From: Paramacrobiotus metropolitanus
Lineage: Eukaryota > Tardigrada > Eutardigrada > Parachela > Macrobiotidae
Direction: 5' to 3'
NCBI RefSeq assembly: GCF_019649055.1
Contig: NW_026570225.1
Location: forward strand, 3,100,001 to 3,164,000
DNA: 64,000 nucleotides
The translations under genes were made by a program, and so were the position numbers. The first letter of the stretch is position 1. Each line of letters opens with the position of its first letter. Shown piece by piece: positions 3,730-54,655 of the stretch. The notes beneath the pieces were generated by a model that was not told the origin of the DNA, did not search any database, and was given only the letters and a program-made list of their open reading frames with translations.

Positions 3730-5157
3730 TGAAATATATATGCGGTGGATAAAAATGATCGTTTATATGTGTGATTGTTCAAAATTTGTGTCGTTTCAGT
3801 TCTCAAAATTTTTTTAGCAGTGTCTAAGGCTTAATCTGTGATTGACTGTGTATTCTGGGGAAACCTCAAGGTTTAAGGGAATTACTGTATACCTATGTTC
3901 CACCGGTTTACAACGTTTTTATCCATTAACTGTCGTGAACAGCGCTTTATACTTATATCATTCTATGTGAACGCATTAAACAATTGAACCATTCATTTCT
4001 ACCACAAGAATCAAAGCTTCATGTTGTTTCTGTAACTTTTTCACTGAATGCAGATTATACGTTATAAAAGCATTTTCCCACGTTTAGCCGAACAAAGGTT
4101 GCATGTTAAATTCGTATGCGAATTCGTTAAATTCGTATTCGGTCAATTACTACTGTACTATTACCATAAGTACGTATTAGTTACCCTCCTCAGCCTTACT
4201 GTAGTAACTTTAAACGCACTGAAAAATGTATGTTTTGTATAAACGTCAGGGGATTTTTTAAACGACAAACCATATCTTGGTATCCGATGCAACAAGGTAG
4301 TAGTGCAAAGTGTGAAACTCGTTCCTCCATAATCCGTTGACCATATCCGATTCTGATTACGTGTCTGGACCGACTGGAGGTTAGGAGGCTTAGACCTTGG
4401 ACACATATTGTGTAACATACAGTAATGCGGATTGCGGACAGAACTTCTTTTGTAATGTTCGCAGTCGTGTTAAAGGGGAATTTATTTACTTGCCATCTCC
4501 GTTCGCAAAATTTTGAGTTTAAACCGTTTTAGGTTTTTGCTTGGTCGTTTTAAAGAAATGCGAAAGGCATGCCGCTACCTGCATCTTTGCCGACCGGGGA
4601 CCGCGGGCGCCTGATTTGCGCGTTAAAGAAACCACGCCTTCGCGATTACGTCACATTAAAGCGCGAACTTCCGTAGACACTGTACCTAGTGCGATTTGCT
4701 CCAAAGCAAAATGCAACCGGAAGTCGAAAATGATCGTGCTACCGAAAATTGAAATTGACGTCACGCCAAGGAAGCTGTGATTGGTCAGAGTTTTAGCTCG
4801 GCTCGGAAATTTGCCAGGCTAAGCATTTTGGCTGAACCTGTCATCTTCTGAAAATTCCAAAACCGAATTTTGAATTTTCATTTTCATCTTCGGGAGATGC
4901 CGAGAGTGTCTGAAATTCCAAATCTACTGTGTCGTCGTGCCGTACTCCCGTTGTCTAGCAGTTACGAATAACAATCTTTGAATTTATGTTTCTCCATGCA
5001 TATTGCTACTGCCTTTTTTCAGTCGCACAGCACCTTTACCATGTCAAACTGCTTAACTTAAAAATATTGAAAATTCCAGTAAAAAAATGGGCGTAAATCC
5101 AATTAATGGTGCATTTTGAATTTTGCCACAAGCAGCACTTTGTCATCGCACGCGGTC
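3730..5157. other. Intergenic between CZIB and left duplication arm
   Basis: No convincing exon is seen. The longest open frames (for example 4541-4780 plus) have no recognisable motif or splice context. The promoter side of the left-arm DTL copy begins at the arm border, base 5158. Confidence 0.4.
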
Positions 5158-5513
5158 TACTCTGTTCGCTGTGCAGCCTGTGCTCTCTTCACAACATTGA
5201 TCCAAAAACCGGGCCGTCGATGGTTTACCCATTTTTTTCATGTTAAGATACGGCGTGTAGAAGAACTTTTGGAAGTTATTGTGAGTTCCTAAATTTCGAT
5301 ATAAAATTGCGATCTCTTTACAGTAACTTTGTGTTGGCTGGAGTCTAAAAACAAGCATGAAAACCGTACGACACTGATGGAGTGTACGAGTATGGATTGC
5401 TCGTTGATTAGGTTTTGTTGAACTGCAGGCTGCTAAAAACTGCCCAATCCCTACGATTATTTAAAGACTTTTTGGATTATAATTACATTATTTGTTCTGG
5501 TCTGGTATTGAAA

Positions 5514-8500
5514 ATGGATGGCTGGAAAAACAGATCGCCATTGGCTTACTGGGAAGCCCGAAAGGGTAAGCTGATTGTTACATGGGTGCCTGTGATACTC
5601 ATTGTGATTTGTGGTCGACACGGTCTGTGCAAAATTCTGAATTAACAATAAACGTTTTCCGGTACAGGAATAGGATCGGCGCTTCCTCAGGTGTTGCCAA
5701 AGCGAACAGAGCCATTTGTGGACTTGAAGTTCGATCTGTACAGTGATGCAGTTGCCTTCGAAAGGGACCGCTTTCAAACTATCTCGGAGGAGCATAATGT
5801 TGCTATTGTGAGTCTGCTCCATGTTAAGTGGTTTATTCTTTTCAAATTTGTAAGGAATTTTAATTCTTCTGTTTCAGGATCCGACAGTGCTCACCTTCGC
5901 TAACCGTGAGAAATGCGTCACCTGTTGCTGCTGTTTTAACATATGTTGAAATTTTAGTTTCTTTATTAGACTACAATCATCCACATAAGCTCCTCGTGGC
6001 GGACGAAGAAGGGATGATTTATTTCCTGGACACGGGAACCGAGTCTTCGAAACATAAAAGTCTCGCTAGTATGTTGACGATATTCTTCAAATTAAAACAG
6101 TACTGTAGAGTAACCCTGCACTTGACGAGACGTACGCTGTGCCATGAGTGCAGTGCAGCTCTGAGCCAGCTAATGGAATTTGTTCAGTTTTTTTGTGTTG
6201 GTTGATTCGTATGGATTTGACCCTGACTTCTCCAGGGCATGCTTAACGAAACAACCAAGTTTAAGTGATTTCTTAATTGATAATCGATTTCTAGCATTGC
6301 GAATCCACAACCACGCCATCTTCGACGCCAAGTTCCGTCCAGAGGATCCTAGTTTGCAGTTTATCACAGCTTCTGGCGATATGGGATGCGCTTTGGTCGA
6401 TTTCAGTACGCAGTCGGTTGTTGGCACTTTCCTGGGACATCATCAGAACGTGAAGTGCTTAAGTTGGCAAAAGATTCACAGAACAGTACGTTGTTATTTT
6501 GAAACTTTAACTGCGATTTCGTCGATTGCGGATGCAGTCAGCATTATTCTGCTTTATTGAGGTGTTTTTGGTATTTGCTTTTCGATTGTTAAAATTCTTT
6601 AGTGTTTTAAATAAGAAGGCAAAACACAAGTGGAATCGGCTGATGGTACGTTCCGCTGGCATTCATTGTTAGATGCCATTCGTTTTAATGTTCATTTTGT
6701 AATTTTTACTATTTGAATTAGTGACATTACCAGTGAAATATAGATGTCGTCGATTTACGAAGTTTTTGAAACGTTCTTGTTACTTCCACTGGATATCAAT
6801 TCGAATAAATAAACGTAAAATCTTGTAGGGATAATTACTTGTCGTTTAGGTTTTTCACCAGTGCCAACACTTGCCTTTTTTTATTTAGATGTTTTTGCTT
6901 CCGGTGGACGTGACGGGCACGTTATGTTTTTCGATTTGCGATCCGGACTGCATAGTACGATTTTGTCGTTTTTATAAGTCATTTTGGAGCTGATGTCGAT
7001 GAACGTACGTTTAGATGGTAGCCATTATCCAGTGGGATACTTGGTGAACGCTCATTCCCAGTGGACGCCTCGGCAGCCTGCGCTGTTCCGACGAGCGTAC
7101 AGAGTATCCATGCCGAATGTATCTATCAACATTGACAAACTACGTGAGGTTTACACTGCATTGCCAAAAGAATCGAAAAACCATAGAACCAGCATTACCG
7201 ATATTATGTTCCAAACGTCTTACGCATTCTGGACCGCTGGCACTGCAGATAGGTAGGACTGGGTATTTTGGATTGCGGACAATAAACCACAATACTATTG
7301 TGTGGAAACCGAATCCATTGCCCTGTTACCCTTTCGCTAACATTAATATTCTTTTTACTCTAGCTCAATTAGGCTGTGGGATTTGCGTCGTTTGAACAGC
7401 GGGAAAACAGATTCAGTCATGTCTATTCACATGGATAGTGGCTTACCGTTTACATCTTTATGCATGGATTCCACTCGAACATCGCTTTTGCCTCATCAAG
7501 GGACAATGTGATATACCAGTTTAACATTGGGCCTTCTATGGATCCCAAGCCAGTCGCACAATACTTCGGAGCTTCAGTTTCGTCATTTTATGTCAAATGC
7601 TCTCTCAGTGCGGATGACGAATTTCTTGGGTGTGGATCCTTGGATGGAAAAGGGTATATTTTCAAGGTGACCAATCGATTTATGCAATGGACCGTCGAAT
7701 CTACCTGTTGCGCTCGAAATATGACGGCTGTAGCTAATCCAAACCATAACTTTGTTCTTTGTCTTTTACATTTCCAATACGAGTATGCTTTAACTGATAG
7801 GTGAAACAACCAAATGCTGCTCCGGTTAATCTGATTGGCCATACAAAAGAAGAAATTTCGGGAGTTGCTTTTAATTCTGTGGACCCATATCAGTTGGCGA
7901 CCACAGCTGAAGATGTTATTGTTTGGCACGCGGAGCCCTATCTTGACCGATGCCGACCCAGTGAGGTCATCGGAACTGCGCGAATTGATTTGAGGGGGTA
8001 TTCATTCATGTTTTATTGTTATTGAGAATTTCTACCGCTGTTAGATTCATGCTACCTTTGTTATCAGTGGTGAAGAATGTTCAACGATATGGCGGTACAG
8101 GATCATGTCTGTAGGTTTGGAGCAGCGTACGCCGAAACTTCGGAAACGCGAGCGATCGGTATGCACGGCCGACCTTCGCATGCCGCAGTTGAGTGTCTGG
8201 TTGCGGGAACGATCCAAGGGAGGGGCATGTTCCCCATTATCTTCGCCGGCAGCAGAATTTAGAATATCTTCTGAAGTTGATGTTACCCACAGCCAACAGT
8301 CAAGTGCTGCACCAAATGGGATAGCTAGAAGTCAGAGCACACCGCAATCTGACCGCGTAAGTTGGGATGTAGTACATATTGCGCTTGGGTAATAATGTTG
8401 TGATTTGATTATGTGCTTTCTGTATGGAGGGTGTACGTATAAGAGAGATTTCACTGTAGTGGAAAACGCTAGTTCAACGGCTGGCGGTTGTTTGGGATTG

Positions 8501-8638
8501 GTAAATTGAAGTCTGATTGGCCGTTAACGGAAGCCTAATTAGGACTTCTCTTTGCAGAAAAGACGGACAAAAAATCTCACACTGTCTCCATTTTTCAAGC
8601 GGGTACGAGTCGAACAGTCACCGTCAACTCTTCCTTGA
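5514..8638 (+). pseudogene. DTL: DTL/CDT2 copy, left arm, with three 1-base deletions
   Basis: The exon set is that of the intact copy at 21052-24208: 5514-5565, 5668-5807, 5878-5905, 5970-6068, 6295-6485, 6889-6954, 7015-7252, 7364-7666, 7801-7997, 8045-8356 and 8558-8638. DTL/CDT2 is the WD40 substrate receptor of the CUL4-DDB1 ubiquitin ligase. Compared with the right arm, this copy lacks one A in an A-run near 6470, one T in a T-run near 7487, and one T near 8090. The first breaks the frame before the SGGRDG blade, and the second brings a stop within a few codons. Two of the three losses are in homopolymers, so read error cannot be excluded. As written this copy cannot encode a full receptor. 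Confidence 0.75.
8573..8596 (+). other. PIP-box-like motif in last DTL exon (left copy)
   Basis: The last exon encodes KRRTKNLTLSPFFKRVR close to the C-terminus. NLTLSPFF follows the PCNA-binding spacing Q-x-x-h-x-x-aromatic-aromatic, with N in place of Q and basic residues after it. Vertebrate CDT2 also has a C-terminal PIP box that brings the ligase to PCNA. The same codons are intact in the right copy (21094-21117). Confidence 0.6.
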
Positions 8639-9486
8639 AAGACAAATCGTATTGTGGCAAATCTTCCGAAATTATTCTGTAACCTTGCAAAAATTTTTGC
8701 GCGTACGCCGCGTCTCGTGATTAGATATTGGTGTTAAAAGTGGAAGAATTGTTGTAATTATTGTTATTGGTAGCCGTGTGATCATCTTTTTTGGATCTGT
8801 AATGCGCAATATTTTTGATGCTGTATATTTCTGATGCGTTGTACAACTTGTACCAGTACGGAATATTTTTATAGACATTTTCTATACAGAAGTCTGTTTC
8901 AGTGGTTATGTAAAGTCTGTTTGCCGGATTATTTTTGCGGCTCCTGATGATGCCTGATTGGTGATTACCAGTCACAAACTTTCAATAGTACGTCGTTCTC
9001 TTTCGTGAAATCAAAAGGGAATAGATCATTTCATATCCTTTATTCTACGACGTAAAGTGTAAACTGCGAAATTATTTATTTCGATACAGCTGCAAGTGGT
9101 AACCCAGTTATGAGTGCAACTTATGACTAGTACACAACTTCTAACCGCATCCAAAATCTCGAACTTCAATAATCTGTATCTACGACAGCGACAATTTCGT
9201 ATGTTTTAGATTCACAGGAACCCGATACTAGAAAAAGACCAGGTAACACTTTGCAGGTCGCCGGGAGGTAGTAAGTATATTACTATGCTGCTAAAACTAG
9301 TAGCAATCAAACAGTTCTCTAGTAACATTGCATGATGATCAAATAATAAAGCTGCTACAAGGAACGGAACTAGAAGGACATCGGGTATGTAATGTACCGA
9401 GCCAGCAGGCACATATTGCTGATGGAGCAGCCATTACATTAGCACCATAAGACTACACGGCAATATAAATATTGTAGCGATCTGAT
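8639..9486. other. Region between convergent DTL and TTD14 (left arm)
   Basis: This holds the two 3' ends and shared downstream sequence. No additional coding exon is seen. About 60 bases near 8750-8840 are present here but absent from the right arm, which is the largest single length difference between the arms. Confidence 0.5.
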
Positions 9487-12438
9487 TTACAAAACCTTCG
9501 AGGCTTCAGTCATCGAAGGGTTTTTCAACAAATCTGCATGCGCCTGAGCCTGCACCACTCCGTTTTCCACAACAGAATGCGCGCGGTGCTTTTCCGCTGC
9601 AATACTATCCCGATGTCCATTGATCGGCTCACTGACACTGATACTGCGTTCCGGTTGGACTTCTATTTTGCTGAAGTGAAGGGGAGATTTCGATTTTTCA
9701 TGGCGATTAGCATGAATGATATTCGGGTCCACAATTTCTTTCCGAGACAAATTGTACATCGAGTAAGTTTTATCGGCTGTGATTTCCGCTTCGATGTCCA
9801 AAAATTCGGGCAGTGGGATCGCCTCCGTTCGGGCGGTGTACGTTTCCAGAATTTTTAAGCCGCGAATCCTGCAGTCATTAAAATTTACGAGATTCGTTAT
9901 GGCGCACGTATCAGTAAATCAAGACCAAGCTCAGTACAGTACTGTAAATGCTCGGGTGTTTCGCCTACGTTCTTCCAACAATAATTGAGCAATTTCAGAT
10001 CACAGTATTTACAATAAAATTCGTACGTCGACAAATGCAACAATAGACAGAGTATCGTTCAATTACGGCATCCCCAGGCGAGAACTGCACTGCACAGCTA
10101 GCATGCAACGCATACTCACGTACTTGCTAGGATTCTTTTCGGTATATATATCAAGCTGGAAATATTGATTATTCCATAGGAAACAGCGTCGCTTCTTGTA
10201 CAATCGATAATGGGAGGGATCACGTTGAGCAAGGAGCATCTGCGTACACCAAGGATAAACAAAAAGCGACAAAACGTAAATGTAAATGTCAAAATGTGTA
10301 ACTATACGCTGCGTACAAAATAATCACGCTCCGTAAGTTGAGTGCGCTGCTCGATATGTTCGTGTTTATCACCAGTTGTAACCAACCGACGAACGGTGTG
10401 TAGGTACTGCCAGTGATCTGTAAGGCAAAATACAGTATTAGTGATCCGTGAGCATCCGGAAATTACATTTACTATTATTTACTACCAACCAAACTCCAAT
10501 TCCTCAACACTGAATGGTAGAATACCCAGTAACAAAATAATCATCAAAAACTGACTTACTATTTTGTCCTCGTTTACGGAGCCGCGCCTGTTCGAATTCA
10601 TGCGATGCGGTAATCAGATAATCGTGTTCCACAACAAAATCTTGGAACTCATGGAAAGCCTGAAAGTTTCTGGGCTACAAATGAGGCAAAAACTTGCATC
10701 CAAGACAGATAAAATGCTACCGAATCAGCCTGCATCTCACGAACGAGAAACTTTCTTTTCCGACTGTTTGGCAACAAACGATCACCGGTATCGAGTCCAA
10801 GACGAGCGCAAACAGACTAGTAAATAAAAAAATCAACACAAATAATTCGCTAACCCTAAAACAACGAGAATACTCATTACGCCCAGGCTTACTTGAACAA
10901 GGCGTCGCATCTTCATGTCAAATGTTGTTGTGTTGTCCATAACTTCTAGATAAGGATGACCGATCCAAGCCTAAGCAAACCAGATTTTATAACAACAACC
11001 CGTGGATTGTTTGTAAGGTTTTTCCATACCTTCATCACTTTTTCATCTAGTTCTCGAGCCAAATTGACACCTTCACTGCGGCAAGTGTGATTCGCCAAAG
11101 TGTAAAATGTTTCTGCACCGTTCGCAGCTGTCACCTACACATAAAAATAAATGATCCAAAAACTTTTCAAAAAAAACAGATTACGAATCACGAAAACACA
11201 CAAACGATGCCCAAACAACCAGCGGCAAATCAAACGCTGGTATACGTACCAGATGAATAACTTGATTGTAGCGGTTATCTCGGATATCCACAGCATTCAA
11301 ATTGTTCTGTTTCATAATCTTTTCCCATGCTGCCGGTTCCAGATCTAATCCAAATCACACATACAATAGCAGTTATTAAATGCAACCATTTACAAAACAG
11401 TTCACGCAAGTCAAATCAGATCTAATTCTTTCCTATTAGCACAACACAACCGACGTACAGGCAGAAGCATCCATCGTGCCGCGATCGCAGATAATTAAGC
11501 AATTCTTGGCACACGTTTCCGCCAGCGCCATGTATGTCTGCTCAATTTGCATCATCGTTTTCAGGAGGTTTTCTTGAAACACGTGACCTACGACATTTCG
11601 GCATGTTAATTCCGCTCCCGAAGCGGTGAAAATAACTGCCGCATACAGTCGTGTGGACTCAGCTCGGAAAATCGTACCCCTCCACTATAAAATACAATCA
11701 TGACTTAATCACGTATGAATTAATCACACCTTGTTTGACTATAATTTCGGCAGAAAAACTGTTTCGTTACCTGAGCAGCGTGTTGGCGGCTTCCGGTACT
11801 CTGTAAACCTTCCATCCGAGATTCTCAAAAAACGACGACAGACTGGCTTGTCCCGTAGTTTTACCCGCACAGGGTCCTGTAAAATAACGTCGAAAATTTA
11901 TATAGTAGCATAATAAATATACGTTTCGTTCTCGCATATTATATAGCTGAGATAAAGTATATCCGGAACTTCAACTTTTCAGCAGCCGTAAGTGTACGGA
12001 CCGAACAACAAACTGTACTCGAACATTTTGGAAATGTAGCAAACAAATTGCAAAGGTGATTCTATGAGCCATCAGGAAGTGATCAAAACTAAGTCCCATC
12101 ATCGACTTTCGCCATATCGAAGAGTTAGAAGACTGGTTTCGTCAATAATGTAACAACGTTTTCGAAGACCCGACAGTCGAGCGCAGCTGCAGCGTTCGTA
12201 CCCGCGCGCAAGTCGAACCCGTTCGCTTTCACAGTAAAAAATAATATTCGTCCCCGTTTATCATATCGCGCACATCTGATTCCGATTACACCAAATTTCA
12301 CACCGATTACTGTCACAGCGCGCACTTACCCCCGGTAAGAACGACCAAATGAACTTTGCGACCTTCGATCGACTGCATGATTTTTGAAGGTAATTCCGCG
12401 GCAGAGTTCGCCTGTGTGCTGCTGTTATCGGTCGACAT
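9487..12438 (-). CDS. TTD14-like P-loop/CYTH-type protein (TRPL translocation defect 14 family), intact copy
   Basis: In Drosophila TTD14 is a GTP- and phosphoinositide-binding protein needed for light-driven movement of the TRPL channel. Early minus-strand exons: 12438-12330, 11876-11771, 11684-11647, 11587-11459, 11344-11250, 11134-11030, 10970-10893, and one starting 10816; three or four more follow. In order they encode a Walker A motif ([12 protein letters not shown]), [50 protein letters not shown], the [10 protein letters not shown] segment, then the C-terminal triphosphate-tunnel-like half with [43 protein letters not shown] and [10 protein letters not shown]. The start ATG at 12438 opens a short polar leader before HLVVLTGG. 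The tail after [10 protein letters not shown] is variable. Exon edges between 10816 and 9487 are approximate. Exons 1-5 and part of exon 6 lie outside the duplicated arm, so only this copy can be complete. Confidence 0.88.
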
Positions 12439-13947
12439 TTCAAGAATCGAGAGCGAATAAGCTACACAAGGGAAGATCGGCTCACAAACCGAGATACCAG
12501 CCGTTACACCACTTCTACTCCAAAATTCTAAATTGAGTACACTAATGTGCGGCAATATGCAGTGCATCCGAACAACAAAATTCGAAAAACCTCGTATTAA
12601 AATAGTGAAAATACCATTCTTTAACCGTTAGCGGTACGACCAAATGAACGGAAACACGGTGAGAGTGACAACAAATCTGTAGTCACAGTGTGGTCACTGT
12701 GGTGCTTCACATGGGTTGCACCGAACAGTTCTGTAGACCGGAAGTCTCACCACTCATATGTTTTTGTCGTAAAAATGGGAGCGTTCACAGGCTCACAAAT
12801 CAATTTTCTGATTTCTCAATGATTGCATAAACGTTTATACGTAACGGTTATTAGTCATATCTGAGTATATTAAATACGTAACAGTAATAACTAATAAGGT
12901 TCAAAACTTCTGATCGACCAACTGATTGTGAGTAAAATTTTGCTCATATCCAGTAGCATGGTTATAAATTCTTTGCTATATACGTCTATCTGTAAGTATT
13001 TGCACTCTTGATGAAGATGTCGATTACAGTATTTCGACATGGTACTCAATCAAAATAAATATATATGCTTGCGGACATACGATATAAATTATTATTATTG
13101 CCAAATTTCATTCTGGAAGATTGTATTTAGTTAGAAGGGAGCAGTTATCGAGGGAGAAAGGAAGCAACCGCGAACAAAAGGTCACCATGATTGGGAAACC
13201 ATTACATCCCGTAATTTCATCAGCGACTCGAGTATATTGTTTAAATTTCACAAAGTATTTAGTGCGCACTGCGTATTGCATGACTTGGGTAAAAGCCCAA
13301 AATTAAAAGACTACTATATTTAATTATAGAAAAAATTTTAAAGACGTGCCACAATGTGTTCCGGTATAAAATGTGCAGACGGTAAATTGTACCTGAAACG
13401 TCCAATGAACAAGATGAATCAGAAGTATAACTATTAATAGATCACCTTAAAAAACTGCTGACCAGTTACTGATTATATACATGATTCTTGACAAGGTACG
13501 TGTATCCCGTGAGATGCTTATTCATTATAGCGACGCAGAAAGATGCCTGTAGGTGATTCTAAAAAATTCTAAAACATTAATATTCTTATAAAAATCAGCT
13601 TATGTGTGCTGGGATAACGTACACGGTACATTCTGTTTTTTGGCACGTGTGGACCACCCTTAAACTTATTTTTTTATACAGTACATTGTCCTACAACATC
13701 ACTTTCAGTATCTATCTATGTATTTTGATGGGATGATCGGATCCACGCCTCTCGCCGACCAAATGGACATTGTTTATGATGCTGCAAATGCAACTTTCCT
13801 GGACGCACAATAAATTTTTGTTGGTCGTATAGGAACCAATAATACATTTTATACCAGAGCCTACAAATCTGAAACTTATGTCTAAAAAGGTGGAAAATTA
13901 GATCTAATACTTTGTACATATTGTATAAGAAAGTTTGTCCTTCGACG
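12439..13947. other. Divergent intergenic region, TTD14 / IAP-like gene
   Basis: The two genes point away from each other, so both promoters should be here. No exon with conserved content was found on either strand, and none of the short open frames resembles a BIR domain. Confidence 0.45.
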
Positions 13948-15757
13948 ATGGCGATATCGATGGACACAGAGGAAGTGACAATAGTTTCCCAGGTATTGAA
14001 TGTCTTTGCGCTTTATATACAGGTAGATTCGAGTAAGTATGCTATTTGGGAAGGTGGTTTTATTGTACTGATACAGTACATATGTACTGCGCAATTACAT
14101 GTATATACTTTGTAGTTTGTACTTTACAACACAATTTACATTGTCAGCAATACTTATACCTATAGTTACAGTATTTAAACTATACGTATATGGTTTCAAT
14201 TGATATTGTAAAGCGAGATTGTTATTGAAAAGGAGCTGGTTCACGACACCTACACGGTAAAAAGCTATCGCGAGTAAAAACCTGTTCTGTGCGACACCGC
14301 AAATTAATTTTCAGAACAATGTACAAATTCTTAAGGAAACGATATATTTTTTTGCTCTTAACTAAGACACGGACAAATTGTGAGTAATGAGATGCCATAG
14401 CCAAACAAAAATACTTTCATTTCAGATACTACGACGTCCAAAAAAGGACAAGCTTGCGAAAGCGTTTGTCTTTTTACAAAGCAATCCACAAGAAGGTAAT
14501 TAAGCAATTAAAGATTTTTTGTTTTCACCTTCTACATTTTGGCGCTTGTATTGTACAGTCCACAACTCATAGCAACTGTAACTAAATAATGCGCTTTGTG
14601 ATTAGATACCGCGGCTACCAGCTCAACTGCCGATCGAATATCTAATGAATCGCTAGCTTGCGCACAAAAGGAAACCGCCTCCAGTATGCGTGTTATAAAT
14701 TTACATAGACCAAATGCTTTCTTCCCCAAACAAAGGGATAGCTCTTTAAATGATGCAGTTACCCTTTTTGAGGTCCCTTTTTACTGTATGTTTAACCCCA
14801 CATTATACTTGTAAGTTTTCGCGTTGTCCTAATAACAATTTGATTAAATTATGGCATCATATCTGCCTGATGTCCGGTTTTAGCACTGGTATTGCATGTA
14901 AGCTAAGCACTACCCATAAGAACTAAACTGTTATTTTTTACTTGCTAATTTTATTCCTCCGTTCAAGGAGGGAATCTTAAAACATCTTCAGTGATACGTG
15001 AAGTGCAAAGCATGGGTTTCAACAGCGACCAAATCCTCAACGCACTAGTCGAACTGGAAATGCGAGAAAACAATCCGCTACAAGAGCTGACAATTGAATC
15101 CCTTTTGCAACTGATACTGGACTTGTCTTACAGGTAGAACTTAGTAAACACTTACTTTTCAAATCTATTCAATATCGCTTCAATCTTGAAAAACATGAGT
15201 TCTCTGCAACAGTTCGGACGATTTTCAACATGTTCCCGAGAACGAAACTACGAGTGCTACGATGGTGAATGCCGAACAACAAACGTATGAAAATTTCGAA
15301 GGTAAGCTAGTTCATAACAGTACGTATCCACTATCCAGTATCCACTCATTCACATTACAGTGGTGGCCACATAGCTCACACATAACTTGAACAATCAAAA
15401 ATAAAATATTAATCCGGTTTAATTTACAATAATTTTTGTGCTTCTCTGTATGGCTGTAAATTTACCGTGCCGGCAGTACCGTTCGCGACAGCGCGTATGC
15501 CTACATATGTAAATACTTCCGAATTGATCGGAAGACAAGAAACGTGATCGGTACAAGTAATCGGTTTTGGCATCTTTGCAGCGACGTCTGACATTTGCGA
15601 CAAAGCAAAAGATTGCATCATCTGCATGGAAGAGCCGGCGGAAATGGCATTCATACCTTGCGGACACATCAAAACCTGTACACCCTGTTCCGATCTGGTT
15701 ATGCTATGCCCGGTCTGCAGAAAACGCATTAGAAATCGGATGCGAATTTATTTTTAA
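13948..15757 (+). CDS. IAP-type RING protein with UBA-like domain, no visible BIR domain
   Basis: Inhibitor-of-apoptosis proteins are RING ubiquitin ligases that usually carry BIR domains. Five exons join in phase: 13948-13992 (tentative first exon, ATG), 14426-14495, 14968-15133, 15213-15301 and 15582-15757. The third exon encodes a UBA-like helix bundle (SVIREVQSMGFNSDQILNAL and on). The last exon encodes a classic IAP RING: CIICMEEPAEMAFIPCGHI, then CTPCSDLVMLCPVCRKR, ending RNRMRIYF and stop, like the ...RTFLS end of BIRC2/3/XIAP. All seven cysteines and the histidine of the RING are present. A short linker of about 30 residues separates the two domains. The predicted protein is about 185 residues. 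No BIR signature (GFYY, CF.C, H......C) was found upstream, so this is either a BIR-less member or the BIR exons are missing here. It converges with RTCA, 224 bases away. Confidence 0.75.
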
Positions 15758-15981
15758 CTCTAAACTTTCCCAACATTAGAAACCGGTTTAATACTAAGCA
15801 AAACATGACCGAAATAATCATTCTTCCCGTCAAATAAAATACTATTAAATAACCACTACAATAAACCGAAAACAATATTGAGCGACCAAGCAGGCTCTGG
15901 AACGAAGAAAATTATCACGAAATGAGCAGACCGGATCAAATGCACATCGCCTTGTGTTCAAAGTTCAAACCATATCTGAAA

Positions 15982-17943
15982 TCATGCAGACACACTGCGG
16001 AAACCCACTCCTTCACAGCCGATCACTTGATTCCCATTCTCCATCGCATTCAAGCGGAACTGCACTCCCAGCATTTTTTCGCATACGAAAATTGCAGTTT
16101 GGGTGTGCAGCGTCAGCGGACCCGTTAAAATTTCTGAATATCCCTTTGCCAGCGCCATAAAGATGATTAACTGATAATATAAAACAAGTTTTACTGAGTT
16201 TAAAATTGTTTAAATCAGCGAATTCGTACTAATTTAAACTAATGTAAAAAGCAGCTAACCAATGTTATAACTGATTAAGTTCGAGACGCGCATAAGTTCA
16301 TAACCAACCTGATCTTGCAAGTGCTCATCCACACAGACATTCGATGAGACAGCGGTAATAACCATATTAGCAGCCTCAACCGCAACTTCCTTGCTGTGCT
16401 TTGTTCGAGATCCATTTGAGGAGCCGGCAACTACGCAACCTGTTGATGTTTCAGCCCAAACACTGAAAAACACAGAATCATCTGAAAACTCAAAATCAGC
16501 AGATATGAAACATTTCTCAGGATGTCGGAAATGTCATGCCAGAAAAAGCAAAATTTTTTACCCCAGAAATCCTAAAGTCCCAGTAACTTCATTAACTACC
16601 AGTTACACGTAATTGACTGTCACCAGCTGAGTGTAACATTACTAAACTAATCGAAAGCCAAGCCAAAATTAATCACCCACGATTATTCTATAAAATCGAT
16701 TGGATGATAATCGGTTTCATTCGCTAGACACAAGCCCGCAACACGGCAATTGACTCACAATGCGCCACTTCCGGTACCCACAGCGCTGGCCGTCGTCTCT
16801 TTCTTAATGATCTTATTGATCTTTAGTCCAGGAAGCTGCTTACTTAACAGCATCTCAGCATGATTGGCACATTCTTCGCTGACATGCACAGGAAGTTGTC
16901 CAGCGACGTAGGAAAAAATACTCACGGCCGACACCGTGCCGCGCTCCAGCAGCCGTACAGCCGACAACTCCGCAACGGGATTCACTTTCACGATGATCTC
17001 CCCGCCACCTTTCGGATAATATCCCCGGCGCAAAATATTCATCTCGGCTTGGATACCGAATCGGGTTAAAATGGGAAGAAGTACTTTCTCCACATAATCC
17101 ACTGGCGGAGCAAACTGTTGGCCACAAAAATTGGCTGCCTCATCAACACGTAAACAATATAAAGGCGAAAACTATTAAAAATGATTAGAAAATATACAAT
17201 CGGTAACGCGAAATTCCGGCTCACTGGAACATAGCTTCACTTTGCATCCATCGTTTTAAAATATATTTAAAAAAGCCAGGCCTATGAAAATGTCAAAAAA
17301 TTCCGATTTACGACAAAAAGGCAAACTCACATCGGCATTCGTTCCTCCTCTCAGCCGAAGAACAGTGGCGCCGTTGGCGAAGAGCGCACAAGGCAACGCA
17401 ATCTGCAGCAGCAGACACACACTCCTGTACAGCGAAGCACACATGCACTGTCGCATTTCTAACATTAAAATCACTTTTACGATGTTCCTACCCCGCCGTG
17501 GCGGCATCGGCAATGAATTCCCCGCTGGTCAGCTTTCCCGGTGAAAACGAAATTTCTTCCGACTGCAGCTGGCCTCCGCGCAGACTGCCATTGCACATGC
17601 GCTGCACGAGCTCCAGGCCACGCAGGTGCTGATTGCTGCAAAACACGCCACACGTTCCAACAATTCCAGAATTCTGCGGTTTCCTGCCAGAAGAGCATTT
17701 CGCTACTCTGTACCTTAATCCAGGAGTTTTTCGCCCAGCGCGAATTCTATGAACACGCAGAGTTTTCTGCAGAAGAGCGCTGAGAGCCACAGCAATCCGC
17801 AGAATCTGTCCACCCTGGAAATTCGCAAGGCCACCCCTCGTACCGTGTTTAGCGTGATGAAAGTAGAGTGACTAAACTCCACCTACTCCTTCCAAAACAG
17901 ATCCATCGATATCAAAGCCCCAGTCACCGCTGCCACCTTCCAT
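15982..17943 (-). CDS. RTCA: RTCA, RNA 3'-terminal phosphate cyclase
   Basis: RTCA converts RNA 3'-phosphates to 2',3'-cyclic phosphates using ATP, through a covalent histidine-AMP intermediate. Seven exons join in phase: 17943-17887, 17814-17714, 17635-17492, 17424-17331, 17114-16759, 16462-16309 and 16170-15982. They encode IDGSVLEGGGQILR, RIRAGRKTPGLSNQHLRGLE, PCALFANGATVLRLRGGTNAD, PPVDYVEKVLLP, RGYYPKGGGEIIVKV, AETSTGCVVAGSS, VDEHLQDQLIIFMALAKG and TGPLTLHTQTAI, all standard RTCA blocks in the correct order. The active-site histidine region (DEHLQDQ) is present. The C-terminal tail after GCEGVGF is short. It lies between the duplication arms and is single copy, except for a 19-base piece copied near 18636. 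Confidence 0.93.
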
Positions 17944-18179
17944 ATTCAGATATTCCCCGATTTCGGTTTGGGAAACAAAATAAGCCTAACCAGATAAGCA
18001 GTTCAACTGATGCTCACAATAACTTTCTTCAGATTGCTCACGTATTTATCCAACAACCCATGCGACTGACTACCAGGAAATGTCAGTTTGCTTTTTTCTG
18101 ATTTCAAACCAAAACTCAGAACGATGTAAAAGCAAAACGTTCTTAAGACTCAAAACGATAAAAAACTTGCTTACTCATA

Positions 18180-18448
18180 ATGGTGAATGGTGATAACAGT
18201 GGCAGTAACCTGTAACTGCATCCCCTACGAGAATGCGTGAGCGTTCAGCTTGAGCGTTTGAATCCCTTTTTGTTCTGCGTGGTGAAGCGAGAATGGTCAT
18301 TTTTTCCGGTTCTGCAGCCTCATCAACCACGGCATCTACCACGGGAACGGCACATATAGGGGCAAATTTGGATCAGAATATGTTCTCTATGATTAGACCC
18401 CCTGAGTCGCTTGATGCTGACTTGCTGAGTAATGTCATGCTTTCTTAA
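18180..18448 (+). CDS. Possible two-exon small protein ending in a GANLDQ/IRPP block
   Basis: Exon 18180-18204 (ATG, encoding MVNGDNSG) can splice in phase to 18318-18448 through a gtaacc donor and a pyrimidine-rich ttctgcag acceptor. The product is about 51 residues: a Ser/Thr-rich linker, then GANLDQNMFSMIRPPESL, then DADLLSNVMLS and stop. The second exon has a diverged relative at 961-1060, so selection on the peptide is plausible. The first exon is only a guess. The family is not recognised. It lies head-to-head with RTCA and just outside the right duplication arm. Confidence 0.35.
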
Positions 18449-18626
18449 GGCTGAGTTGGTTAGTAAAACAAATTAAAGGCACGTAAAACTCATAAACCCA
18501 TAAACACATAAACAATAAACACGTAAAACGTTGTACTCGTATGTTCTTAATTACTGTATGTATCACGCATTTTTTTGGGTTCCATGGCCGACAAAATCCG
18601 AAACAATTAGGGAAGTCATTACATAA

Positions 18627-18679
18627 GTGCAGTTCTCCACCCTGGAAATTCGCACTGCGAGAACTGCACTGCAATTCGC
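18627..18679. other. Patchwork junction at inner end of the right arm
   Basis: 18636-18654 repeats 19 bases of RTCA (17809-17827). 18657-18673 repeats 17 bases of a left TTD14 intron (10078-10094). The twelve bases agtgcagttctc (18627-18638) are inverted at 18659-18670. The homologous arm starts directly after, at 18680. Short, directly abutting pieces from nearby loci are what template switching during replication repair leaves behind. Confidence 0.65.
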
Positions 18680-20280
18680 AACATTTTACACTTTGGCGAA
18701 TCACACTTGCCGCAGTGAAGGTGTCAATTTGGCTCGAGAACTAGATGAAAAAGTGATGAAGGTATGGAAAAACCTTACAAACAATCCACGGGTTGTTGTC
18801 ATAAAATCTGGTTTGCTTAGGCTTGGATCGGTCATCCTTATCTAGAAGTTATGGACAACACAACAACATTTGACATGAAGATGCGACGCCTTGTTCAAGT
18901 AAGCCTGGGCGTAATGAGTATTCTCGTTGTTTTAGGGTTAGCGAATTATTTGTGTTGATTTTTTTATTTACTAGTCTGTTTGCGCTCGTCTTGGACTCGA
19001 TACCGGTGATCGTTTGTTGCCAAACAGTCGGAAAGAAAGTTTCTCGTTCGTGAGATGCAGGCTGATTCGGTAGCATTTTATCTGTCTTGGATGCAAGTTT
19101 TGCCTCATTTGTAGCCCAGAAACTTTCAGGCTTTCCATGAGTTCAAGATTTTGTTGTGGAACACGATTATCTGATTACCGCATCGCATGAATTCGAACAG
19201 GCGCGGCTCCGTAAACGAGGACAAAATAGTAAGTCAGTTTTTTGATGATTATTTTGTTACTGGGTATTCTACCATTCAGTGTTGAGGAATTGGAGTTTGG
19301 TTGGTAGTAAATAATAGTAAATGTAATTTCCGGATGCTCACGGATCACTAATACTGTATTTTGCCTTACAGATCACTGGCAGTACCTACACACCGTTCGT
19401 CGGTTGGTTACAACTGGTGATAAACACGAACATATCGAGCAGCGCACTCAACACGGAGCGTGATTATTTTGTACGCAGCGTATAGTTACACATTTTGACA
19501 TTTACATTTACGTTTTGTCGCTTTTTGTTTATCCTTGGTGTACGCAGATGCTCCTTGCTCAACGTGATCCCTCCCATTATCGATTGTACAAGAAGCGACG
19601 CTGTTTCCTATGGAATAATCAATATTTCCAGCTTGATATATATACCGAAAAGAATCCTAGCAAGTACGTGAGTATGCGTTGCATGCTAGCTGTGCAGTGC
19701 AGTTCTCGCCTGGGGATGCCGTAATTGAACGATACTCTGTCTATTGTTGCATTTGTCGACGTACGAATTTTATTGTAAATACTGTGATCTGAAATTGCTC
19801 AATTATTGTTGGAAGAACGTAGGCGAAACGCGAGCATTTACAGTACTGTACTGAGCTTGGTCTTGATTTACTGATACGTGCGCCATAACGAATCTCGTAA
19901 ATTTTAATGACTGCAGGATTCGCGGCTTAAAAATTCTGGAAACGTACACCGCCCGAACGGAGGCGATCCCACTGCCCGAATTTTTGGACATCGAAGCGGA
20001 AATCACAGCCGATAAAACTTACTCGATGTACAATTTGTCTCGGAAAGAAATTGTGGACCCGAATATCATTCATGCTAATCGCCATGAAAAATCGAAATCT
20101 CCCCTTCACTTCAGCAAAATAGAAGTCCAACCGGAACGCAGTATCAGTGTCAGTGAGCCGATCAATGGACATCGGGATAGTATTGCAGCGGAAAAGCACC
20201 GCGCGCATTCTGTTGTGGAAAACGGAGTGGTGCAGGCTCAGGCGCATGTAGATTTGTTGAAAAAACCCTTCGATGACTGA
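18680..20280 (+). pseudogene. TTD14-like copy, right arm, truncated and frameshifted
   Basis: The copy begins inside the exon encoding [13 protein letters not shown] and therefore lacks the first five exons, including the Walker A P-loop. Against the left copy it also has: one A fewer near 19033 (frame lost after NSRK), one C fewer near 19144, two bases fewer near 19451 (frame lost after EQRTQ), and one A more near 20265, which changes the C-terminus to ...LLKKPFDD. The later exons with [14 protein letters not shown] and [10 protein letters not shown] are otherwise nearly identical to the left copy. Truncation plus several frame breaks make this a pseudogene. Confidence 0.85.
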
Positions 20281-21051
20281 AGCCTCGAAGGTTTTGTAAA
20301 TCAGATCGCTACAATATTTATATTGCCGTGTAGTCTTATGGTGCTAATGTAATGGCTGCTCCATCAGCAATATGTGCCTGCTGGCTCGGTACATTACCTA
20401 CCCGATGTCCTTCTAGTTCCGTTCCTTGTAGCAGCTTTATTATTTGATCATCATGCAATGTTACTAGAGAACTGTTTGATTGCTACTAGTTTTAGCAGCA
20501 TAGTAATATACTTACTACCTCCCGGCGACCTGCAAAGTGTTACCTGGTCTTTTCTAGTATCGGGTTCCTGTGAATCTAAAACATACGAAATTGTCGCTGT
20601 CGTAGATACAGATTATTGAAGTTCGAGATTTTGGATGCGGTTAGAAGTTGTGTACTAGTCATAAGTTGCACTCATAACTGGGTTACCACTTGCAGCTGTA
20701 TCGAAATAAATAATTTCGCAGTTTACTTTACGTCGTAGAATAAAGGATATGAAATGATCTATTCCTTTTGATTTCACGAGAACGACGTACTATTGAAAGT
20801 TTGGCATCATCAGGAGCCGCAAAAATAATCCGGCAAACAGACTTTACATAACCACTGAAACAGACTTCTGTATAGAAAATGTCTATAAAAATATTCCGTA
20901 CTGGTACAAGTACCATCAGAAATATACAATCAATATACAACAATTCTTCCACTTTTAACACCAATATCTAATCACGAGACGCGGCGTACGCGCAAAATTT
21001 TGCAAGGTTACAGAATAATTTCGGAAGATTTGCCACAATACGATTTGTCTT

Positions 21052-24000
21052 TCAAGGAAGAGTTGACGGTGACTGTTCGACTCGTACCCGCTTGAAAAAT
21101 GGAGACAGTGTGAGATTTTTTGTCCGTCTTTTCTGCAAAGAGAAGTCCTAATTAGGCTTCCGTTAACGGCCAATCAGACTTCAATTTACCAATCCCAAAC
21201 AACCGCCAGCCGTTGAACTACGGTAGCGTTTTCCACTACAGTGAAATCTCTCTTATACGTACACCTCCATACAGAAAGCACATAATCAAATCACAACATT
21301 ATTACCCAAGCGCAATATGTACATCCCAACTTACGCGGTCAGATTGCAGTGTGCTCTGACTTATAGCTATCCCATTTGGTGCAGCACTTGACTGTTGGCT
21401 GTGGGTAACATCAACTTCAGAAGATATTCTAAATTCTGCTGCCGGCGAAGATAATGGGGAACATGCCCCTCCCTTGGATCGTTCCCGCAACCAGACACTC
21501 AACTGCGGCATGCGAAGGTCGGCCGTGCATACCGATCGCTCGCGTTTCCGAAGTTTCGGCGTACGCTGCTCCAAACCTACAGACATGATCCTGTACCGCC
21601 AATATCGTTGAACATTCTTCACCACTGATAACAAAGGTAGCATGAATCTAACAGCGGTAGAAATTCTCAATAACAATAAAACATGAATGAATACCCCTCA
21701 AATCAATTCGCGCAGTTCCGATGACCTCACTGGGTCGGCATCGGTCAAGATAGGGCTCCGCGTGCCAAACAATAACATCTTCAGCTGTGGTCGCCAACTG
21801 ATATGGGTCCACAGAATTAAAAGCAACTCCCGAAATTTCTTCTTTTGTATGGCCAATCAGATTAACCGGAGCAGCATTTGGTTGTTTCACCTATCAGTTA
21901 AAGCATACTCGTATTGGAAATGTAAAAGACAAAGAACAAAGTTATGGTTTGGATTAGCTACAGCCGTCATATTTCGAGCGCAACAGGTAGATTCGACGGT
22001 CCATTGCATAAATCGATTGGTCACCTTGAAAATATACCCTTTTCCATCCAAGGATCCACACCCAAGAAATTCGTCATCCGCACTGAGAGAGCATTTGACA
22101 TAAAATGACGAAACTGAAGCTCCGAAGTATTGTGCGACTGGCTTGGGATCCATAGAAGGCCCAATGTTAAACTGGTATATCACATTGTCCCTTGATGAGG
22201 CAAAAAGCGATGTTCGAGTGGAATCCATGCATAAAGATGTAAACGGTAAGCCACTATCCATGTGAATAGACATGACTGAATCTGTTTTCCCGCTGTTCAA
22301 ACGACGCAAATCCCACAGCCTAATTGAGCTAGAGTAAAAAGAATATTAATGTTAGCGAAAGGGTAACAGGGCAATGGATTCGGTTTCCACACAATAGTAT
22401 TGTGGTTTATTGTCCGCAATCCAAAATACCCAGTCCTACCTATCTGCAGTGCCAGCGGTCCAGAATGCGTAAGACGTTTGGAACATAATATCGGTAATGC
22501 TGGTTCTATGGTTTTTCGATTCTTTTGGCAATGCAGTGTAAACCTCACGTAGTTTGTCAATGTTGATAGATACATTCGGCATGGATACTCTGTACGCTCG
22601 TCGGAACAGCGCAGGCTGCCGAGGCGTCCACTGGGAATGAGCGTTCACCAAGTATCCCACTGGATAATGGCTACCATCTAAACGTACGTTCATCGACATC
22701 AGCTCCAAAAATGACTTATAAAAACGACAAAATCGTACTATGCAGTCCGGATCGCAAATCGAAAAACATAACGTGCCCGTCACGTCCACCGGAAGCAAAA
22801 ACATCTAAATAAAAAAAGGCAAGTGTTGGCACTGGTGAAAAACCTAAACGACAAGTAATTATCCCTACAAGATTTTACGTTTATTTATTCGAATTGATAT
22901 CCAGTGGAAGTAACAAGAACGTTTCAAAAACTTCGTAAATCGACGACATCTATATTTCATTGGTAATGTCACTAATTCAAATAGTAAAATTACAAAATGA
23001 ACATTAAAACGAATGGCATCTAACAATGAATGCCAGCGGAACGTACCATCAGCCGATTCCACTTGTGTTTTGCCTTCTTATTTAAAACACTAAAGAATTT
23101 TAACAATCGAAAAGCAAATACCAAAAACACCTCAATAAAGCAGAATAATGCTGACTGCATCCGCAATCGACGAAATCGCAGTTAAAGTTTCAAAATAACA
23201 ACGTACTGTTCTGTGAATCTTTTTGCCAACTTAAGCACTTCACGTTCTGATGATGTCCCAGGAAAGTGCCAACAACCGACTGCGTACTGAAATCGACCAA
23301 AGCGCATCCCATATCGCCAGAAGCTGTGATAAACTGCAAACTAGGATCCTCTGGACGGAACTTGGCGTCGAAGATGGCGTGGTTGTGGATTCGCAATGCT
23401 AGAAATCGATTATCAATTAAGAAATCACTTAAACTTGGTTGTTTCGTTAAGCATGCCCTGGAGAAGTCAGGGTCAAATCCATACGAATCAACCAACACAA
23501 AAAAACTGAACAAATTCCATTACTAGCTGGCTCAGAGCCGACTGCACTGCACTCACATGGCACAGCGTACGTCTCTCTGAGCTGTAAAAAAAGCTGTCAA
23601 GTGCAGGGTTACTCTACAGTACTGTTTTAATTTGAAGAATATCGTCAACATACTAGCGAGACTTTTATGTTTCGAAGACTCGGTTCCCGTGTCCAGGAAA
23701 TAAATCATCCCTTCTTCGTCCGCCACGAGGAGCTTATGTGGATGATTGTAGTCTAATAAAGAAACTAAAATTTCAACATATGTTAAAACAGCAGCAACAG
23801 GTGACGCATTTCTCACGGTTAGCGAAGGTGAGCACTGTCGGATCCTGAAACAGAAGAATTAAAATTCCTTACAAATTTGAAAAGAATAAACCACTTAACA
23901 TGGAGCAGACTCACAATAGCAACATTATGCTCCTCCGAGATAGTTTGAAAGCGGTCCCTTTCGAAGGCAACTGCATCACTGTACAGATCGAACTTCAAGT

Positions 24001-24208
24001 CCACAAATGGCTCTGTTCGCTTTGGCAACACCTGAGGAAGCGCCGATCCTATTCCTGTACCGGAAAACGTTTATTGTTAATTCAGAATTTTGCACAGACC
24101 GTGTCGACCACAAATCACAATGAGTATCACAGGCACCCATGTAACAATCAGCTTACCCTTTCGGGCTTCCCAGTAAGCCAATGGCGATCTGTTTTTCCAG
24201 CCATCCAT
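21052..24208 (-). CDS. DTL: DTL/CDT2, CUL4-DDB1 ubiquitin ligase substrate receptor, intact copy
   Basis: CDT2 binds DDB1 and directs CRL4 to PCNA-bound substrates such as CDT1 and p21. Eleven exons mirror those of the left arm. The ATG at 24208 starts MDGWKNRSPLAYWEARKG, matching the NGW...PL N-terminus of the family. WD40 blades follow: KLLVADEEGMIYFLDTG, HAIFDAKFRPED, TFLGHHQNVKCLSW, FASGGRDGHVMFFDLRSG, AGTADRSIRLWDLRR, FASSRDNVIYQFNI, FYVKCSLSADDEFLGCGS and LIGHTKEEISGVAFN...VIVWH. A basic, Ser-rich tail (RTPKLRKRERS) leads to a PIP-like NLTLSPFFKR 18 codons before the stop. Every exon join checked is in frame. The protein is about 560 residues, shorter than human DTL (730), mostly in the tail. 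Its partner copy is broken, so this is probably the working gene. Confidence 0.88.
21094..21117 (-). other. PIP-box-like motif in DTL (right copy)
   Basis: It encodes NLTLSPFF followed by KRVRVE. The hydrophobic and double-aromatic positions fit a PCNA-interacting box; the usual first glutamine is asparagine. Confidence 0.6.
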
Positions 24209-24562
24209 TTTCACTATCAGACCAGAACAAATAATGTAATTATAATCCAAAAGTCTTTAAATAATCGTAGGGATTGGGCAGTTTTAGCAGCCTGCAGTTC
24301 AACAAAACCTAATCAACGAGCAATCCATACTCGTACACTCCATCAGTGTCGTACGGTTTTCATGCTTGTTTTTAGACTCCAGCCAACACAAAGTTACTGT
24401 AAAGAGATCGCAATTTTATATCGAAATTTAGGAACTCACAATAACTTCCAAAAGTTCTTCTACACGCCGTATCTTAACATGAAAAAAATGGGTAAACCAT
24501 CGACGGCCCGGTTTTTGGATCAATGTTGTGAAGAGAGCACAGGCTGCACAGCGAACAGAGTA

Positions 24563-25176: not shown

Positions 25177-25626
25177 TCATGCAACCAGCAACCTGGCAAA
25201 ATCGTGCATGCGCAACTGCTTGGATACGGGAATCACATGCAACGGTGTCTGGGGATCCATACCGGCAAACGTGGCGCGTCCAAAAACAGTTGGGCTTTCT
25301 CCTTCGGTCACTGCATCTGTAGCCGGCTCACTCCGATCTGGAACACTCATGGGATCGCCGCGTAAGGAACTTTGTAAAGTTCGCGGCGCCACACTCCGGA
25401 ATGTCGATGATTTATCAGAACGATTATTAACGGGAAGGTGGTCACCTCCGAGACGGTACACCAGTTTCTTTAGCAACCAACGGAACGTGTTGCGATTGTA
25501 CAGTGGAAGATTCAAGATAGCGTTGACGTTGTCCTGGTTGAAAGTGCGATGGCAGCTGTACATGCAGCACTCCAGAATTACAGTCCAGCAGATAAAAAGA
25601 AGTATTTTACCGCAGTATTTTCCCAT
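25177..25626 (-). CDS. Predicted secreted protein of unknown family
   Basis: The ATG at 25626 opens a 150-codon frame with a signal-peptide-like start: MGKYCGK, then a hydrophobic core ILLFICWTVILECC. After it come NTFRWLLKKLVYRLGG and a Ser/Pro/Thr-rich stretch, ending with QLRMHDFARLLVA and stop. The LLKK and GG sites resemble prohormone processing sites, but no repeated peptide is present. An overlapping plus-strand frame of similar length (25163-25651) has no signal peptide and is taken as the shadow. The 3' end may continue by splicing into 24901-25176. The family is not recognised, and expression is the main uncertainty. Confidence 0.4.
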   Translation of the reverse strand: MGKYCGKILLFICWTVILECCMYSCHRTFNQDNVNAILNLPLYNRNTFRWLLKKLVYRLGGDHLPVNNRSDKSSTFRSVAPRTLQSSLRGDPMSVPDRSEPATDAVTEGESPTVFGRATFAGMDPQTPLHVIPVSKQLRMHDFARLLVA

Positions 25627-26513
25627 GTTACAAACGAAAATGCAAAAATAAAGCAGATCCAATAAACTCGAAAACCTTTCAAATTACTATCTTCGATTTC
25701 TCGCATATCAGCACCGGCAATTATACCAGCATTAACAGCAAATATGCATCTTTAACTCGACAGTAAATTGTAATCGCGGTCACATAAAGTTTGCCTTCTG
25801 AATTGTTTTTGAGGTTCCACGGAGGCATTGTCGAGAAAAATACGACCATCTCCTTTGTGTCCGCGCATACACCCCAAACGGTTAGTACAACAATGACTGC
25901 GTAAACGACAATAAATGCTAGCACAAAAGCAACATGTGCAACAGGGGATTATTTTGTAACGAGTCATTTTGTGAAGTAACATTTCTATTGTCCGCCCTAT
26001 TGTGAAGTAACATTTCTACCAGAGGAATCAGAGATCGCCGAATAGCATCTTACTTGTCGGCACATGGATGCAACGATTGCAAAATTAGTACAGAGTCAAC
26101 AATGCGTGTTAGCCTTGTCGGCGCTCGACAGTCGGCATCAGTTGCATTATCGGATAAATAGAAGTACATACCGATAATTCTGTGAAATTCTGCGCTAAAT
26201 TTTCATCGGACCACATTTACCTACACACTGCAAAAACATCTCTACGATGATCGTAATTTTTGACCAACAGTAATTTTTGAAATCGTACTTTTTTTAATGT
26301 GATCGCCTCCTTTTTCATTAACAGCATCGCATGAAAAATATGTATATATTAAAATATGATATTTATACGAGTATGATATAATGAATACCGTGCTATCTGG
26401 AGGTGTTCGATTTAATTACAGTTGACAGCTATTAACAAACACAAGCGCCTGATTGTTTTAGCTATTTGTCGTCTTCTAAAATTAGTTAGTACAATTTGCG
26501 AGAGCACAGCGTA
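25627..26513. other. Intergenic, nothing recognised
   Basis: AT-rich sequence without a supported exon. Short minus frames at 25721-25982 are hydrophobic but have no splice or motif support. Confidence 0.4.
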
Positions 26514-27316
26514 GGGTTGTTAACGGTGCGGTGCGGTGTACACCGGTGTGCCGTCGGTGCGGTTTTTTACAAGAAATCGCACTTACCTTACCGGTGTAAA
26601 GCGAAAATCGCACCGGACGGTGCGGTGAAAATAAAAATCGCACCGCAATTTTTTCACCGCACCGCACCGGTGTACCGGTGTAGCACACGTTAGTAGAAGA
26701 AAAAAGCAACAATTAGCAATTTTATCACTTATCAATCGCCAGAACTTTAGCACTGCTAGCTTTCAGCCTTCTAAAGGCATCACCAGCAGGATGTATCCAA
26801 TCGTAGGAAAACTGTAATGAAGACGTGAAATATCGAAAACAATTTCCCTAAGAATATTTGTGACGAACCAAATCAACGTAGAGCGTGGAAAATCAAGCCG
26901 CCAATATTATTACGCAGCAATGTTACACATTTTCTTTAATCTTATGGCAGCCCGGTTGTTGCAGCAGCTACAAGTTGAAACTTGTGATTGTGAGACTGTG
27001 AGTGAGCAATAGCATTGAGTACTACCTACTTTGTCATACCGACTGATACGGTACTGACTTACAAGCGCCACAGCCGTGCTCCCCGTGGGCATGTGCCCAT
27101 CCAGCAGCGTCATCGCATAAAATGTTTTAAATTTTAAAACACTACGAATTTAGAAATTCGTTAACTGGTGGTTACCGGTGTATGTTAACGCGGTTACCCA
27201 ACCACACCGGTGGCGCCGGTGTGGTTTTTTCAAAACCGCACCGCCTGTACCAATTTTGTTTCGAAATCGCACCGCAATTTTTCAAATTGCACACCGCACC
27301 GTTGCAGCGTCTGCGT
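26514..27316. repeat. hAT-like non-autonomous element with ggtgcggtg ends
   Basis: The left end reads tagggttgttaacggtgcgg with further ggtgcggtg and caccgcaccg copies through 26690. The right end (27170-27310) holds accggtgtgg and caccgcaccgttgcag in the opposite sense. Ends rich in cggtgcggt, facing each other and starting near tagggttgt, are typical of hAT transposon termini. No transposase frame lies between them, and no clear 8-base target duplication was found, so the borders are approximate. Confidence 0.45.
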
Positions 27317-54106: not shown

Positions 54107-54655
54107 TACACCGTTCGACACTAATTTTAACACGATAGCTCAAAAAATCCCTAAAATCATCTAGTTTGCGGCAACGACTTTCGTTTTTCAATCTTTTCGT
54201 CCTTCGATTTACGAAACGGCTCCAAAACGAATTTCGCTGATTGGTCGACCATTAGAAAGTAACAGAGGATTGGCGGAAATGCGTAATTTTCGAACCTAAA
54301 CCGCTGACACATGGCAATGTACGAACATATGCATATTATTGTTAAGCCACACTGCCACATACTCAGTTTGTCCAGTCGGCTGGTTCATTTTACGGGAATG
54401 CAAATTTTATCGTTAAAAAAGTACACTCCTCCTACACCGTTCGCAACTAACTGAGCCGTTTTTTTGTCCAATTTTTACACGATAGCTCAAAAAATGCCTA
54501 AAATCGTGTAGTCTGCGTCAACGACTTTCGTTTTTCGATCTTTTCGTCCTCCGATTTACGAACCGCGTTCGAAATGAATTTCGCTGATTGGTTTACCTTT
54601 AGAAATTAAAATTGGATTGGCGGAAATGCGAATCGTTTCGAACGAAAACCGCTGA
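54107..54655. repeat. Diverged tandem pair of about 0.23 kb, period about 325 bp
   Basis: 54107-54310 and 54430-54655 share ctcctacaccgttcg, then cacgatagctcaaaaaat, then cgactttcgtttttc, gatttacgaa, ggattggcggaaatgcg and accgctgac in the same order, at clearly less than full identity. The second copy is repeated again inside 56111-56837. Confidence 0.75.

Follow-up and report, generated by a model that had tools for sequence, protein, structure and literature searches.

We analyzed a 64,000-nucleotide window from the genome of the tardigrade Paramacrobiotus metropolitanus (RefSeq assembly GCF_019649055.1, contig NW_026570225.1, positions 3,100,001 to 3,164,000 of the forward strand; coordinates below are those of the window), which contains a pair of inverted, nearly identical arms. 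The left arm (B; 5158-11111, 5,954 nt, + strand) carries a copy of DTL on the + strand and the 3′ part of a gene that we take to be TTD14 on the − strand. The right arm (B′; 18680-24562, 5,883 nt, − strand) is an inverted copy of the left. Between them lies a single-copy spacer (C; 11112-18679, 7,568 nt) with TTD14 exons 1 to 5 and the RNA 3′-terminal phosphate cyclase gene RTCA.

The mirror arms of about 5.9 kb with DTL and TTD14, which a first-pass annotation made without database searches had described, were confirmed by a gap-tolerant alignment of one arm against the other. This alignment gave 5,834 matching columns, 9 substitutions, and 33 indel events, in 11 of which sequence is missing from the left arm and in 22 from the right. 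The likeness of the arms comprises kilobases of identity and exceeds chance. When the whole assembly was searched (169,799,020 bases in 533 contigs), a DTL probe of 601 nt was found in two places and the spacer in a single place, the latter yielding besides just 18 short, weak repeat matches. Comparison of the outer flanks, within 264 kb, revealed no shared match of 200 bp at 90%, and near the seams these flanks share only short chance matches. A simple fold-back or a join of two alleles is rejected, since at these thresholds the outer flanks have nothing in common beyond chance and the spacer occurs once. We hold it highly probable that the inverted-duplication structure is genuine. The arm segment was presumably once single-copy, as the truncated copy of TTD14 described below suggests.

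The part of DTL that was modeled falls entirely inside the arm. Its product matches a Denticleless structure in PDB (9c5t) with an E value of 2.4e-39, compared with 1.5e-12 for the best chain of another kind, and has the sequence of a WD40 propeller. The right copy (21335-24208, − strand) consists of 11 exons running from 24208 to 21335, where the model ends, and reads through 563 codons in a single open frame, all 10 introns being bounded by GT...AG. The earlier description of this copy as open thus holds, with the qualification that the exon limits were set by eye, guided by the frame and by human DTL, so that openness is partly built in. The left copy (5514-8356, + strand; modeled part only) is broken at 6127/6145, 6469, and 7486. 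Three frame-breaking deletions had been claimed for it; the copy is indeed broken, and in detail a 20-nt loss at 6127 removes the acceptor of exon 5 and a 2-nt loss at 6145 the donor, additional single bases are missing at 6469 and 7486, and differences at 7994 and 8090 offset each other. Upstream of the right DTL, an open frame of 168 codons on the − strand (25177-25683) has no Pfam match.

The full-length TTD14 (9487-12438, − strand) has 12 exons, which run from 12438 to 9487, out of the spacer and across 11111 into the left arm; exon 6 (11134-11030) spans the left inner seam. Exons 1 to 5, which lie in the single-copy spacer, are open as modeled. The N-terminal 244 residues match AAA_28 (E value of 1.5e-19); beyond this match, the name TTD14 is our assumption and follows the first-pass label. 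The right remnant (18680-20299, + strand) begins within exon 6 at 18680 and lacks the first exons, which confirms that these were never copied. Full-length TTD14 is therefore present only on the left, and the sole clear loss at the locus is that of the 5′ part of the right copy. The remaining assertions about TTD14 stood only in part. Besides being truncated, the right copy was said to have four further frame changes, and length changes are indeed found in exons 8, 9, 10, and 12 (left positions 10756, 10644, 10335, and 9521); at 9521, however, the missing base belongs to the left arm and not to the right. Likewise, the left copy was described as open, which is the case only if exon 8 uses an upstream, weak GTTCGT donor, whereas with the ordinary donor (GTGAGA) a stop follows just past exon 8. 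In the right copy, a one-base loss in exon 8 brings the ordinary donor into frame with exon 9 while altering a few residues, so that either arm could be the correct one at that single place.

The junction between the spacer and the right arm bears what looks like a repair scar. Its last 54 bp before the arm (18626-18679) include three pieces, of 17, 19, and 12 nt, with identifiable local templates, as in a templated-insertion junction. The 17-nt piece (18657-18673) equals 10078-10094; the 19-nt piece (18636-18654) equals 17809-17827, where RTCA exon 2 begins; and the 12-nt piece (18626-18637) equals 10080-10091 inverted. The 17- and 12-nt pieces match the right arm as well, at 19693-19709, which places the templates 0.8 kb (RTCA site) and either 1.0 kb (right arm) or 8.6 kb (left arm) from the right inner seam. 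The 19-mer occurs in only two places in the assembly, allowing one mismatch. As a control for chance, 13 of 400 random local 100-nt windows had a match of at least 17 nt, a count that includes windows in a transposon or over the source of the 19-mer. At the right outer seam (24562/24563) and before the transposon that adjoins the left arm, a search for templates turned up no match as long as 13 nt. Mosaics like the one at the right inner seam are left by template-switching repair and are not written by assemblers. Given the templated pieces, the right inner junction is new; the left inner seam is ancestral, because TTD14 runs continuously across it. RTCA itself (16255-17943, − strand) has one exon that matches PF01137 (1.9e-16). 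Its first exon lies inside the spacer, and its limits, drawn by eye from open frames, cover the part followed, short of the 3′ end.

At the left outer seam, a complete dispersed transposon (4682-5158, 477 bp, + strand), nonautonomous and resembling a miniature inverted-repeat transposable element, ends where the left arm begins, and the sequence shared by the arms opens with the transposon's last base and the triplet of its target duplication. This duplication is a 3-bp ACT at 4679-4681 and 5159-5161. The family has more than 10 further copies of 83 to 99% identity, several of them nearly identical, and in each of the nine rows read by eye (the window and copies L001 to L008) the left and right flanking triplets, all of the form ANT, agree. 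The agreement of the ACT triplets is that of an ordinary insertion and suggests that the left outer junction is older than the transposon. It favors a history in which a copy was inserted at the right, although a microhomology join could imitate such flanks.

Nanopore consensus errors persist in long repeats, where they appear as one-base losses in homopolymers and as an excess of indels over substitutions. The differences between the arms have this form. Single-base events account for 16 of the 33 indels, and 11 of these 16 lie in homopolymer runs whose longer form is at least 5 bases, while runs of at least 5 bases make up about 40 of 4,328 runs. A pair of ribosomal DNA (rDNA) copies in the same assembly behaves alike: a 1,586-nt block contains 11 gap openings and 3 mismatches, and a wider comparison of 1,914 matching columns contains 36 indels, including losses of 25 and 38 nt, and 11 substitutions. 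The ratio of indels to substitutions does not differ between the arms (33:9) and this pair (p = 1.0). The short copies of the transposon, compared in nine rows after two of ten retrieved copies (L009 and L010) were excluded as too diverged, have 12 indels (9 deletions and 3 insertions) and 27 substitutions, a ratio that differs from that of the arms (p = 2e-5). Given the indel-rich spectrum, its match to the rDNA pair, the homopolymer bias, the open TTD14 exons 1 to 5 in the single-copy spacer, and the open ALG10 frame at 48534-49301, we infer that the frame breaks are mostly residual consensus errors in a long repeat. Such errors would fit the way in which the genome was produced: the available text of PMC8277472 describes DNA from about 3000 animals, R9.4 nanopore reads, and processing with Canu, nanopolish, Pilon, HaploMerger2, and again Pilon, and gives 170,483,395 bases in 684 scaffolds with an N50 of 1.03 Mb for the published assembly. 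The positions of DM-domain genes fit this species as well: of five matches in the assembly searched, two are on contig 5, at 2.135 and 2.163 Mb, and PMC11191345 locates two DMRT paralogs of P. metropolitanus on scaffold 5 between 1.96 and 2.37 Mb. By our reasoning, short reads would favor whichever copy is right and leave the wrong copy uncorrected.

The second rDNA copy (L032, positions 1-6954) lies at the end of contig 184 and has many indels relative to the first, its 18S gene included; it may be a poor contig-end consensus or a pseudogene.

Several observations weigh against attributing the breaks to sequencing error. Two shorter duplications in the 264-kb region, one of 727 bp and identical and the other of 374 bp with 2 substitutions, contain no indels where 6.2 would be expected at the arm rate (p = 0.002); the survey listed the two arm pieces and three pairs, of which the third (230 bp, 90%, inside a minisatellite) was excluded. 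Only one pair of rDNA copies served as the control, and the second of them, which extends to the end of its contig and is missing conserved 18S motifs, could be a genuine pseudogene. Arm losses of 20, 21, and 53 nt are long for consensus errors, and the excess of indels is absent from the transposon copies. Just before the start of DTL, substitutions at 5505 and 5508, 3 bases apart, leave an AG in the right arm and none in the left. A regionally worse quality of one arm was tried as an explanation and rejected by a runs test, which gave p = 0.20 when indels were counted and p = 0.96 when events were counted. Lastly, the breaks are split cleanly by gene between the arms, which random errors would produce with a chance of 3 to 11%, a figure that counts 9521 with the right arm although the left is the shorter there; we do not find this chance compelling as an argument for real decay. 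The claim that the locus captures reciprocal loss in progress is thus not borne out, as the spectrum is that of residual nanopore errors like those of the rDNA pair and the split could arise by chance, and we consider it doubtful, if still conceivable, that the loss is real.

Real loss could have come about in more than one way. According to the first-pass annotation, an inverted copy was inserted at the right, the old left DTL decayed while the new one took over, and TTD14 had to stay where it was. The reading frames are largely as that account described them, and it agrees with the matching target duplication on the left and with the clean state of the shorter duplications nearby; yet the divergence is rich in indels and poor in substitutions, the homopolymer pattern and the rDNA control point to errors, and the left TTD14 itself depends on a weak donor, all of which makes this history quite unlikely. 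A second route would be an inversion with staggered breaks, in which the spacer was inverted together with one arm, the arms are the duplicated breakpoint segment, and each gene persists at its native junction (TTD14 on the left, and on the right DTL, still joined to its former upstream DNA) while the detached copies decay. DNA of presumably single-copy origin does lie inverted on either side of a segment here, much as inverted duplications flank the inverted segments 2h and 2q of Drosophila mojavensis in the available text of PMC3355041, and the continuous TTD14 on the left and the open DTL on the right are what such breaks would leave. Against this stand the ACT flanks of an ordinary insertion at the left outer seam, which suggest that the junction predates the transposon, and, for the decay, an indel spectrum that points to errors; we judge this combination unlikely. 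A more elaborate version, to which we give scant credence, holds that excision of the small transposon on one chromatid freed the 5.9-kb block, which template-switching repair then captured in inverted orientation a few kilobases away. The arms would then truly divide their labor, each gene being retained only in the arm that preserves its regulatory or coding continuity, and the locus would be a snapshot of reciprocal loss at about 0.15% divergence.

It is very unlikely that the structure arose in the assembly, by the merging of two haplotypes or of a chimeric read into one contig. The available text of PMC8277472 gives some grounds for such a suspicion, since the DNA came from many animals, Canu was set to preserve heterozygous variants before HaploMerger2 was applied, and the authors suspected concatenated reads, which they discarded above 1 Mb. 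The templated pieces, however, sit exactly at the seam as a repair scar beyond what an assembler writes, and a fold-back would leave no unique spacer and no unrelated outer flanks.

We favor, as reasonably likely, a very recent and genuine inverted duplication in which most of the small indels, including the breaks in the left DTL and the right TTD14, are uncorrected nanopore errors. In such a duplication, both copies of DTL are probably near-identical and intact, and the right TTD14 would be truly dead only through its missing 5′ exons. A broken end may have been mended by an error-prone pathway that copies short nearby stretches, either polymerase-theta end joining or microhomology-mediated break-induced replication (MMBIR), and this repair would have fused a second copy of the arm, truncated at its inner end, to the spacer's right end. 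One break probably arose at the transposon, since the other end of the copied block sits at the transposon's terminus. On the DTL side, ancestry could run either way, the left copy being native if an inverted copy was inserted, and the right being native for DTL and the left for TTD14 if the spacer was inverted between staggered breaks. If the left outer seam is old, a copy of the arm would have entered at the right in inverted orientation, and its outer end may go back to a break left by transposon excision; if that seam is new, the spacer and one arm would have been inverted with staggered breaks, and DTL would then have stayed in its old place.

Elsewhere in the window, the identical 727-bp pair is a direct duplication (54248-54974 and 56111-56837) that adjoins a minisatellite at about 56686-58800, whose steps measure roughly 29 bp. 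Another dispersed repeat (26508-27292) is 71 to 97% identical to copies on many contigs. Open exons of ALG10 (48534-49301, 255 codons, E value of 3.6e-58) and of an XendoU endoribonuclease (52583-53023, E value of 3.6e-22) were also identified, and an Rfam scan of the whole window found nothing at gathering scores. Signs of a nematode origin were sought as well: the canonical 22-nt SL1 sequence had no match when one mismatch was allowed, the Rfam SL1 model found nothing among the 50 of 33,806 candidates that were scored, which carries little weight, and no COX1 turned up.

If the duplication is real, the locus is a naturally occurring tardigrade rearrangement of young age, in which the scar of repair can still be read and a transposon marks one end, and would be useful for understanding how breaks are mended in desiccation-tolerant animals. 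If the frame breaks are errors, it also serves as a caution that mirror copies in the long repeats of nanopore assemblies can mimic complementary pseudogenes. A text search of the papers available found none joining Paramacrobiotus with denticleless, and no other search was aimed at this locus.

The differences between the arms resemble uncorrected nanopore consensus errors in long repeats in their one-base homopolymer losses and in an indel excess like that of the rDNA pair of this assembly, and are unlike typical errors of this kind in that some losses span 20 to 53 nt and two shorter nearby duplications are clean. The right inner seam resembles the templated insertions of polymerase-theta end joining or MMBIR, in which short nearby pieces appear at a rearrangement junction (as described in the available portions of PMC7202663 and PMC8421209). 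It is unlike the class described in the available text of PMC7202663, whose templates lie less than 40 bp away, in that the templates here are 0.8 kb or more off; the pathways named above are candidates. As a whole, the locus resembles the D. mojavensis inversions 2h and 2q (PMC3355041, available text), where kilobase-size, originally single-copy DNA lies inverted on both sides of a segment. The partial copy of TTD14 parallels 2q, whose copied segment lacks the first exon of CG1208, and at 2h one copy is intact and the other eroded, which we count as a likeness. Unlike at 2h and 2q, the arms here lie just 7.6 kb apart and are near-identical, and a transposon lies at one end.

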